From Alkalihalophilus pseudofirmus (GTDB taxonomy: Bacteria > Bacillota > Bacilli > Bacillales > Bacillaceae_D), in assembly GCF_029094545.1 (NCBI RefSeq), contig NZ_CP117835.1:2150001-2214000 (forward strand): DNA of 64,000 bases, written 5' to 3'. The position numbers and the translations under genes were made by a program. Shown here one piece after another: positions 19,693 to 21,557 of this stretch; position 1 is the stretch's first letter, and every line of letters starts with the position of its first letter. The notes under the pieces were generated by a model. That model had not been told where the DNA came from. It worked only from the letters and a program-made list of their open reading frames with translations, and ran no database searches.

Positions 19693-19822
19693 TGATTGTT
19701 GATCTCCGCTGCAGGCACACGCTTTCCGCGGGCGGTCCGGGAGCTTCTTCGTCGCATTGGCTCCTGTGGGATCTCCCTGGTCTCCCGCATCCCGCTGGAG
19801 TCGGTGCCTTCCGCTCCAATCA
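19693..19822 (-). repeat. Hairpin repeat, copy 1 (minus orientation)
   Basis: A 130-bp GC-rich imperfect palindrome bounded by TGATTG and CAATCA, with inner complementary pairs GGCAC/GTGCC and GCGGG/CCCGC. Read on the minus strand it contains GACTCC...GGGAG and ends GCGGAAAGC, the same order of blocks as the plus-oriented copies below. It forms the left end of a composite element reaching 20083. It lies 99 bp upstream of the lacI start. Confidence 0.75.
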
Positions 19823-19979
19823 GCGGAGGAAGCATGTTGTATAGTGCTCCCATTTTTATAAACAGAGTTCAGTGAACTTAGCAAATGAACTCAAAAGTGT
19901 CTTCATTTTTCAAATTTGAACTGTACCATAACTAAATCACTCAACATAATAATTACAAAAACGCAATAACTTAGCGGAT

Positions 19980-20083
19980 GAACTATACGAAGACTCCTGT
20001 GTGGACTAGAGCAGGGGTGAGATCCCACAGGGCCCAAGCCCGAGGAAGCTCACCAGCTCCACACGGAAAGCGAAGTATAGTTC
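19980..20083 (+). repeat. Hairpin repeat, copy 2 (plus orientation)
   Basis: 104 bp bounded by GAACTATAC and GTATAGTTC, with nested stems GTGTGGA/TCCACAC, GGTGAG/CTCACC and GGGC/GCCC. Blocks in order: GACTCCTGTGTGGA, GGGGTGAGATCCCACAG, GCCCGAGGAAGCTCACC, TCCACACGGAAAGCGAAG. Its outermost stem differs from copies 3 and 6 at both strands so that pairing is kept. Confidence 0.8.
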
Positions 20084-20197
20084 AGGAGCGGAGATGCTGC
20101 TATAACCCATGTTTAAAGCATTTAAGGTATTTAAGGCTTTGAGTCTGTTATCACATCACTCCACGTAAAAGTCATTTAGAGCAATCACTTAGCGGAT

Positions 20198-20300
20198 GAA
20201 ATATGCGTAGACTCCTGTGTGGACTAGAGCAGGGGTGAGATCCCACAGGGCTTAGCCCGAGGAAGCTCACTGGCTCCACACGGAAAGCGAAGCATATTTC
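20198..20300 (+). repeat. Hairpin repeat, copy 3 (plus orientation)
   Basis: 103 bp bounded by GAAATATGC and GCATATTTC with the same nested stems as copy 2 and more than 90 percent of the central blocks identical by eye. It lies directly after copy 2 and 52 bp before the yesL stop. Confidence 0.8.
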
Positions 20301-20351
20301 AGGAGCGGCGACTATGCTAAAAATCATGTTTAAGCATGTTGATGTTTATAG

Positions 20352-20951
20352 TTAAACCGCATTATATTTCTTAAAAACAGAATAATTCACATTCATCAGC
20401 ACATAAGCAAACACACTTATCCCTATCACAAAGGACACTCTCGGGAAATTGACCACAATTAAAAAGTACGCAAGAAGCCAAACAAGCTGCGTAAGGGTCA
20501 TTAATGGATGAGCAAAAACAAGTCCAAGTGATGCTTTAATATAAGAGAACGTTTTATATTCAAAATGCGCCATAACAGAAAATACATTTAAAAATGTCAT
20601 TAGTATAATAGCTGCAATGGCAGCAATGACGAGGTAAACGAATAATTGTGTCGACTCACTGTAGAAATATCCAGCAAATGAAAAGTTTACATAAATAATA
20701 TAAAACAATCCGGTAAAGATTGCACCTACAAGATTTGAACGTATAAATTCCGCTTTATAATATGTGAAGTAACTTGAAAATAAATTGAACTGATTTCCTT
20801 TGATCCAGTCTCTTATGACTCGAAACAAAGCAAGGGTTGCTGGCATAAATCCAAATAAACCAAGCCCTGCTACAAAAAAGAACAGCCATAGGATATTCAG
20901 TGCAATAAACTTATAGACGACTTCGGTTATTTGAACGATTAACTTGCCCAT
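20352..20951 (-). CDS. yesL: YesL-family membrane protein (DUF624, 199 aa)
   Basis: Polytopic protein with about five membrane helices and the DUF624 pattern: VYKFIALNILWLFFFVAGLGLFGFMPATLALFRVIRDW near the N-terminus. YesL proteins occur beside carbohydrate ABC importers and glycoside hydrolases in Bacillales, but their molecular role is unknown; an aid to importer assembly has been suggested by association only. Here it lies between the permeases and lacI, in the same direction, but is separated on both sides by long repeat-filled gaps (606 and 757 bp). The start ATG is preceded by AAAGGAGGG. Confidence 0.85.
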   Translation of the reverse strand: MGKLIVQITEVVYKFIALNILWLFFFVAGLGLFGFMPATLALFRVIRDWIKGNQFNLFSSYFTYYKAEFIRSNLVGAIFTGLFYIIYVNFSFAGYFYSESTQLFVYLVIAAIAAIILMTFLNVFSVMAHFEYKTFSYIKASLGLVFAHPLMTLTQLVWLLAYFLIVVNFPRVSFVIGISVFAYVLMNVNYSVFKKYNAV

Positions 20952-21013
20952 TTGAAACCCTCCTTTTACGTAAGAATACTAATAGTTGGTTGTAATGCAG
21001 ATTCCCTGCAATA

Positions 21014-21075
21014 ATTGTTGATTTCCGCTGCAGGCACTCGCTTGCTCTTGTGGAATACCTCTTGGCCACGCATAT
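21014..21075 (-). repeat. Degenerate partial hairpin repeat, copy 4
   Basis: The sequence keeps TTGTTGATTTCCGCTGCAGG, then CACTCGCTTGC, and a later TTGGCCACGCATA, matching the ends of copy 5 but lacking the central GC-rich stems. It appears to be an internally deleted copy abutting copy 5. Confidence 0.5.
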
Positions 21076-21102
21076 ACTGAAAAAGTCTCCCCTGCGATAG
21101 GT

Positions 21103-21228
21103 GTTGATCTCCGCTGCAGGCACTCGCTTTCCGCGGACGGTCCGGGAGCCTCCTCGGGCTTTCGCCCTGCGGGGTCTCCCCTGGCCACGCACATCCCGCA
21201 GGAGTCGGTGCCTTCCGCTACAATCAAC
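21103..21228 (-). repeat. Hairpin repeat, copy 5 (minus orientation)
   Basis: 126 bp bounded by GTTGAT and ATCAAC, inner pairs GGCAC/GTGCC and CGCGG/CCGCA-type, central GGGCTTTCGCCC hairpin. Near-identical to copy 1 over long blocks (TCCGCTGCAGGCAC, CTTTCCGCGG, GGAGTCGGTGCCTTCCGCT). It forms the left end of the second composite element. Confidence 0.75.
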
Positions 21229-21379
21229 CGAGGAGGGATATTGTAAGTGCTCCCTTTCTATATGCAGCTGTTCACTGTTTTTAGCAGATAACCCACGGAT
21301 GTCTGCTTTTTTTAATTTGAACCTATGCATTACTAAATCGCTCAACATAATAATTACAAAATGCAATAACCTAGCGGAT

Positions 21380-21483
21380 GAAATATGCGTAGACTCCTGT
21401 GTGGACTAGAGCAGGGGTGAGATCCCACAGGGCACAAGCCCGAGGAAGCTCACCGGCTCCACACGGAAAGCGAAGCATATTTC
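21380..21483 (+). repeat. Hairpin repeat, copy 6 (plus orientation)
   Basis: 104 bp bounded by GAAATATGC and GCATATTTC, with the GTGTGGA/TCCACAC, GGTGAG/CTCACC and GGGC/GCCC stems. Right end of the second composite element; ends 75 bp before the stop of the downstream-strand permease gene. Confidence 0.8.
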
Positions 21484-21557
21484 AGCCGCGGTGACTTCGC
21501 TCTAACCAATATTTAAGTGAATTACCTTAAACAGACACCGCAAAGAGCTGATGGTGA

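Follow-up and report, generated by a model that had tools for sequence, protein, structure and literature searches.

A structured hairpin repeat that forms outward-facing pairs in Alkalihalophilus and seems to be a landing site for two transposase families

In the window, i.e., the whole 64,000-nucleotide stretch analysed here (C1:2150001-2214000 of a 4.24-Mb genome whose main contig is 4.08 Mb long), a yesL-like gene lies between two units of similar build, each consisting of two oppositely oriented repeats and a spacer, and the question that this locus raises is what such a paired unit is and how it may have arisen. An earlier note on this DNA had described the two repeat types as the same element in opposite orientation, and this holds, as reversed M ("minus") copies and P ("plus") copies align as one hairpin; they are two subfamilies of a single ~130-nt structured hairpin, named H here. 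The repeats, the extra plus copy and the decayed minus copy that the note had listed were all found, by sequence and repeat search, where it had placed them, and the locus reads as follows (window positions; R1 is the model of H introduced below):

19695..19831, minus strand: H hairpin of the M subfamily, unit 1 (R1 match at C1:2169695-2169831, 102.7 bits)
19832..19961, no strand: 130-bp spacer of unit 1, homologous to the spacers of other units
19962..20099, plus strand: H hairpin of the P subfamily, unit 1 (R1 match, 108.2 bits)
20180..20316, plus strand: extra P copy, a tandem repeat with a period of about 217 bp (R1 match, 112 bits)
20352..20951, minus strand: yesL-like gene (DUF624, PF04854; domain match), between both units
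about 21004..21087, minus strand: decayed M copy with an internal deletion (repeat search, families D4 and D7)
21072..21085, no strand: possible remnant of an IS1182-type end, GGCCACTGAAAAAG, with 4 mismatches, overlapping the decayed M
21100..21235, minus strand: H hairpin of the M subfamily, unit 2 (R1 match, 125.1 bits)
21236..21361, no strand: 126-bp spacer of unit 2, homologous to the spacers of other units
21362..21499, plus strand: H hairpin of the P subfamily, unit 2 (R1 match, 114.7 bits)

The M copies of the two units match at 85% (blastn). The extra P copies are the product of tandem duplication, and their number differs from that in A. pseudofirmus OF4: the yesL locus has two P in the window and one in OF4 (orthologous locus L356), while a second OF4 locus (L376) shows three P pattern matches at 217-bp spacing where the host genome has one P.

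Model R1 was derived from an alignment of 38 H sequences, 11 from the host and one from each of 27 relatives. In the host genome it gave at least 108 matches, all on C1 and a lower bound because 150 of the 613 candidates were scored, and these fall into 67 clusters (H matches within 400 bp of one another) of the types '<>' (25), '<>>' (5), '<<>' (2), '>>' (2), '<' (20) and '>' (13). The second contig, C2 (157838 bp), carries no H match on the R1 list, against 108 on the main contig. Adjacent pairs are '<>' in 32 clusters and '><' in none; 31 of these 32 pairs are clean, and the one at C1:2295853 consists of two overlapping matches. Hence, the paired form recurs across the genome, and the paired, opposite orientation noted earlier stands, but the copies do not face each other: M-P pairs point outward. 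M and P are 115-136 bp apart in 26 of the 32 pairs. When 30 spacers were compared all against all, 114 blastn links joined every one of them into one connected group (shuffled spacers gave 0 links), which bears out the claimed relatedness of the spacers. They have diverged, with the spacer of unit 1 directly matching 15 and that of unit 2 matching 11 of the 29 others; an alignment was made of 27 units. Neither of the two outcomes that the earlier note had named as refuting its reading, a pair that does not recur or spacers that are unrelated, was observed. No target duplication was seen at the units.

Going inwards, the alignments of H show by eye an outer stem, the loop pair GACTCC / GGAAAGCG, a second stem (TGCGGG / CCCGCG), an internal loop that is asymmetric, and a third stem (GTGAG / CTCAC) with GGGC..GCCC at the apex. 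Covariation supports this architecture: of the 20 pairs called by RNAalifold in the 38-sequence alignment (28 genomes), 13 have changes in both partners in one or more sequences. In a second set, i.e., 79 R1 matches from stretches of three other genomes (G080, G044 and G015), 93.0% of the cells are paired, against 35-53% in slid controls, and 169 cells carry double changes, against 53.7 in shuffles, although this alignment was fitted to R1 and hence leans towards it. Mismatches in H are more often G.T (45) than A.C (19). An optional module of ~60 nt (CGAAAATG..CATTTTCTTCG..CCTTCCTTGTCCT) occurs in some H copies at GACTCCT^GCGGG, in G080 and G044, which belong to two genera (copies L200:14328, L207:11870, L207:18946, L236:7307 and L238:12192). 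On Priestia megaterium plasmids, H is annotated as the hypothetical proteins WP_080754389.1 and WP_205664564.1 (L121:2444-2626 and L123:2487-2624). Rfam 15 returned 0 matches in the window and, at a relaxed threshold, three hits that all scored below half the gathering score; no match to H was found in phages, and no description of it was found in the published literature, where papers holding H strings were judged by title and the start of the abstract.

A whole-unit query against 60 genomes (host included) gave, among the matches listed, a full-unit match only in the host and in A. marmarensis DSM 21297 (G001), a member of the same genus, and all 71 stretches recovered by a P-subfamily pattern scan of named contigs come from A. 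marmarensis DSM 21297 or A. pseudofirmus OF4. The M-P pairing is thus mainly a matter of the genus Alkalihalophilus. Some form of H was present, among the matches listed, in at least 38 of the 60 genomes (host included) and at least 24 of the 31 genera, in line with the remark in the earlier note that similar single hairpins are scattered in many Bacillaceae. Counts per genome are lower bounds (the search scored the best candidates); G080, for instance, has at least 150 H (all 150 scored candidates matched), with one adjacent pair, in tandem. In 1.2 Mb of G080, G044 and G015 together, H is mostly single, as the 79 matches include three pairs, all '<>', two of which lie in G015, a genome of the same family as the host.

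In ten of 12 A. marmarensis unit loci, which were picked for good unit matches, H is found at the same place in the host, in blocks that are 83-98% identical and sometimes hold a partial pair; judging by these shared positions, the sampled H units are old. The one A. marmarensis locus tested for an empty site of a whole unit (L190) gave none, as the host has an unrelated gene there, and flank queries from the Priestia plasmids gave only themselves and short repeat matches.

The genomic positions of H raise the possibility that it is a functional RNA element (a terminator, attenuator or mRNA stabiliser) of 3' untranslated regions, with the pair as its bidirectional version. Among the 51 of the 67 host clusters that could be placed, 18 lie between converging genes, 32 in tandem contexts and only one between diverging genes. 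Of the 79 copies in the three other genomes, 77 lie between ORFs and two inside an ORF, and, based on ORF-based gene calls, H sits between diverging genes in 4 of 28 copies in G080, 3 of 23 in G044 and 1 of 26 in G015, while diverging gaps make up 33 of 147, 39 of 144 and 26 of 127, respectively, of the intergenic gaps of at least 150 bp. That is, the deficit between diverging genes is clear in G015 and weak in G080. Single H copies in tandem contexts of these genomes are on the coding strand in 41 cases and on the other strand in 12, which, together with the covarying, RNA-like structure and the excess of G.T over A.C mismatches, argues for an RNA role and is more than a reading of H as a pure DNA parasite would require. 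A replication-strand bias, which single-strand transposition would be expected to leave, was not evident in G080 (first half 44+/38-, second half 40+/28-); in the G015 stretches, the H copies above 60 bits all lie on one strand of the sequence. Against a functional RNA, the paired units of the host show no order bias in tandem contexts (M first in 12, P first in 11; hand tally), H lacks an Rfam match, and it is interrupted by insertion sequences (below). Further, H-bearing elements in G044 insert at terminators with one polarity, which could explain both the position and the orientation of H, so we consider the functional-RNA reading unlikely.

These elements show H in another role. Flank alignments reveal H as the core of MITE-like elements in G080, G044 and G015, with conserved arms that differ between the genomes. 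In G044, one type has IS1182-like ends (CAGTGTGTAGACAAAG..TTTGTCAACAGTCTG) and a second type has the ends GGCCACTGAAAAA..TTTTTCAGTGGCC; in G015 and on the Priestia megaterium plasmids, the ends of the H elements are of the GAGGCTGGGACA type. Of the first G044 type, 400 kb of that genome (C1:100001-500000, L220-L239) yielded ten elements; they are 175-442 bp long, carry no transposase gene, and their ends match, by eye, those of the IS1182 copy L126 and its relatives. At eight of the ten, a terminator stem-loop of 21-26 nt is duplicated right at, or at most one base from, both ends (shuffled maxima, 12-14), and at the other two a decayed hairpin duplication is visible by eye. Therefore, terminators are the insertion sites of these G044 elements, the entire stem-loop is copied in the process, and all ten show one polarity. 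MITE-b of G044 lies within the apical loop of an H copy and brings in a further H. With their short length, IS1182-matching ends and target duplication, the transposase-free G044 elements are MITEs in kind, and the non-autonomous part of the earlier note's suggestion, a non-autonomous element with long inverted ends, stands to that extent; the long inverted ends are not supported (below). One of the closest published cases is IS1272, likewise a system with an IS1182-family transposase and stem-loops as targets, which, according to passages of Wan et al. (PMC5678879), replaces its target hairpin without duplication. In contrast, insertion of the G044 MITEs duplicates the hairpin in full, which the passages concerned mention only as a possible pathway, and the IS1182 copies of the host make 8-9 bp duplications inside H. 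The terminator-copying elements of G044 are well suited, by their simplicity, to experiments on the reading of DNA hairpins by transposases.

As for transposases, 38 of the 60 genomes (host included) have PF13751 matches, and the host has three. One host element (L290, C1:4063.9-4065.6 kb) encodes a transposase with an open frame of 486 aa (NF033551, 357 bits; cut-off 270) between the ends GGCCACTGATAAA and TTTTTCAGTGGCC. GGCCACTGA ends flank IS1182-family transposases in the host (L290, L291) and G044 (L292), and the PF13751 genes at L272 (G047) and L266 (G025) lie between GAGGCTGGGACA-type ends (2 mismatches at most). No enzyme dedicated to H was found, and hairpin-seeking transposases of the IS1182 family most likely move the H-bearing elements in trans.

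The two are also linked inside IS1182 itself, as H lies between a terminator-like left end hairpin and the transposase gene at 15 loci of five families, in the same orientation at all 15 (transposase DNA 72-93% identical to the query). This arrangement could mean that H was originally a functional part of IS1182, e.g., a control element before the transposase gene, from which other copies descended. Yet relatives at nine loci (L162, L166, L167, L169, L172, L176, L177, L180 and L183) have no H, some of them at 83-86% transposase identity, the spacers around H look unalignable between lineages, and the intact host copy L290 has no H inside; we regard such an origin as rather improbable. At one locus (L181, genome G157), the transposase of an IS1182 copy is preceded by H and followed by another H in opposite orientation. 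A Peribacillus copy had suggested that H is the true end of IS1182, which was rejected, as H lies inside the IS ends and some relatives have no H.

How, then, did the pair arise? The sequences next to M and P were searched for IS1182-type ends in 30 of the 32 units, the two with a partial M being left out. A significant match to the end GGCCACTGAAAAAG lies within 45 nt outside M in 12 of the 30 (1 and 0 of 30 in two controls), and a different IS1182-type end, ACTTTTGTCCCAGCCTC, lies outside P in seven (1 and 1 of 30 in controls). An outer end, GAGGCTGGGACATAACTAAA, was seen left of M in three units, hardly more than a chance expectation of 1.5; at C1:669689, the clearest case, the outer end is followed by the inner end in the left flank. 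Unit 2 of the window is one of the 12 with GGCCACTGAAAAAG, where this remnant is ambiguous because it overlaps the decayed M. The units of the window themselves show no clean terminal repeat and no target duplication. Since M and P are each complete and, in part of the units, IS1182-type ends lie outside them, the pair looks like two H-bearing elements joined. In addition, the spacer is similar by eye, in its right half (ATAACTAAATC..AAGCAATAACTTAGCGG), to the left arm of the P elements of G015.

The long inverted ends proposed earlier would make M-spacer-P a single MITE, with M and P as its termini. The order and spacing of the parts are constant and arms of ~58 nt are 74-76% complementary, as expected of such an element, but M and P are each complete hairpins, the three genomes aligned have single H copies between conserved arms of their own, remnants of terminal repeats lie outside M and outside P in part of the 30 units, and tandem P copies occur. 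A single MITE is thus quite improbable, and the M-spacer-P pair is probably a nested relic.

The reading that we favor, and judge fairly likely as a whole, joins these elements. H is a family of structured, ~130-nt repeats in Bacillales and the core of several small non-autonomous elements, some with IS1182-type ends; IS1182-family transposases would be the motor. In Alkalihalophilus, an M-type and a P-type H element would have been joined, in the simplest case through insertion of one beside or within the other (in one variant, the M-type element into the left arm of the P-type element), and the resulting ~400-bp composite would then have multiplied to about 32 pairs, with tandem duplication adding P copies. 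The data show the H family, its pairing and covarying structure, the MITE ends and hairpin duplications of G044, insertions into H (with one pre-insertion site) and the shared positions of 10 of the 12 sampled units, whereas we infer the nested origin, the IS1182 motor of the composite and the lack of a host function. Finally, H is itself a preferred target of insertion. An IS1182-family element (ends GAGGCCACTGA..) enters H at one internal loop and leaves an 8-9 bp duplication there, while the conserved GACTCC of H is where an IS110-family element goes in.

The evidence for a landing pad starts with the host, where an intact IS1182 element interrupts M in one M-spacer-P unit and has CACGCACAT at either flank, and a second copy interrupts a P and has GCCTAGAG at either flank. 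The IS1182-type terminus pattern GGCCACTGANAAA occurs 4 times in the host (G000), 17 times in G001 and 56 times in G044, against 1, 0 and 0 for the backwards pattern. Among the 31 distinct termini with at least 25 nt readable outside (of 77 listed), 26 abut H, i.e., 4 of 4 in the host, 10 of 13 in G001 and 12 of 14 in G044. The insertion point is one internal loop of H in the host and G001 and the apical loop in G044. Several of the G044 insertions, at lengths of 441-442, probably derive from a single nested element, so the independence of the insertions into H is best supported in the host and G001. One site in G001 (L300/L303) is not an H and has GGTTGGAC on both sides.

An IS110-family element of A. 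pseudofirmus OF4 (NF033542, 225.7 bits) lies in a P, and the host genome is uninterrupted at that locus, providing a pre-insertion site. Across the whole OF4 genome, all four copies of this element are in H, at the same base (CAGGAG / TCTACG) and in the same orientation. The IS110 genes of the host are 24% identical, and each is more than 5 kb away from the nearest H of the R1 list. H seems to be a preferred, precise landing site for two unrelated transposase families, IS1182 and IS110. The OF4 element resembles the RNA-guided IS110/IS1111 elements, as described in passages of PMC11187229, in its family, its single target sequence and its longer non-coding region downstream of the transposase, which is structured (L392:2690-3110). 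Within this region, GCAGGAGTAGA bears a short resemblance to the target halves CAGGAG|TCTAC, which is no more than suggestive of a candidate guide RNA.

One might go further and hypothesize a self-renewing pad. The elements that insert into H would carry H inside, as MITE-b does, so that using a target H would create a new H; at least two unrelated recombinase families, IS1182 (DDE) and IS110 (RNA-guided), would have converged on the same target, and this use, rather than a benefit to the host, would conserve the structure of H across Bacillales and steer insertions away from genes. We consider this extension possible but doubtful. If the shared landing pad is real, H would provide an IS110-type recombinase with a target that occurs in nature, as seen in the 4 of 4 copies inserted at one base.

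What appears to be new is H as a landing site for IS110 and IS1182 elements, a role that the earlier note had not anticipated, in parallel to the known targeting of REPs by insertion sequences. According to passages of Tobes and Pareja (PMC1525189), 7 of 7 copies of ISPpu9, 6 of 6 of ISPa11 and 4 of 4 of ISRm19 lie in REPs, and the REP-targeting elements (IS621, ISPpu9, ISPpu10, ISPa11 and ISRm19) often belong to the IS110 family and, in the table rows examined, are from Proteobacteria. Like the REPs and BIMEs of those passages, H is a high-copy, intergenic hairpin and the target of particular insertion sequences, and it would be their Gram-positive counterpart in this respect if the landing pad holds. 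Unlike them, H is ~130 nt long with conserved internal loops, belongs to Bacillota, showed no RAYT link in this analysis and is targeted by both IS1182 and IS110. REPs are defined (PMC3733652) as units of 20-40 bp with a GTAG or CGTC tag, and no constant tag of this kind was seen in the H alignments. Among repeats of the same order, bcr1 (Bacillus cereus group, 167 bp) and Bhal-1 (B. halodurans, 74 bp) are, in passages of PMC2267715, type I repeats and likewise stem-loop families with tens of copies; the sizes listed there differ from that of H, although Bhal-1 may correspond to a part of H. Some Bacillales genomes hold at least 150 copies of a structured repeat that has no Rfam match and no description that we found in the literature.

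The same parallel suggests that H could be a REP-type repeat moved by a RAYT (a Y1 tyrosine transposase), with the pair as a BIME, since H is high-copy, intergenic, a hairpin, an insertion-sequence target and found in oppositely oriented pairs. We consider this highly improbable: 43 of the 60 genomes (host included) have a Y1_Tnp match, but the H-rich host and G001 do not, none of 30 Y1 loci shows M or P (blastn), H far exceeds the REP size of 20-40, and two of five RAYT-like loci scanned have other inverted repeats near the gene (GGGACAGG.., GGGGACGGTTCTC..). A RAYT/Y1 transposase as the motor of H is disfavoured on the same grounds, i.e., H-rich genomes without Y1_Tnp and Y1 loci without M or P. 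At L117 and L120, the palindrome family near the RAYT-like genes (GGGACAGG.., GGGGACGGTTCTC..) possibly represents their own REPs.
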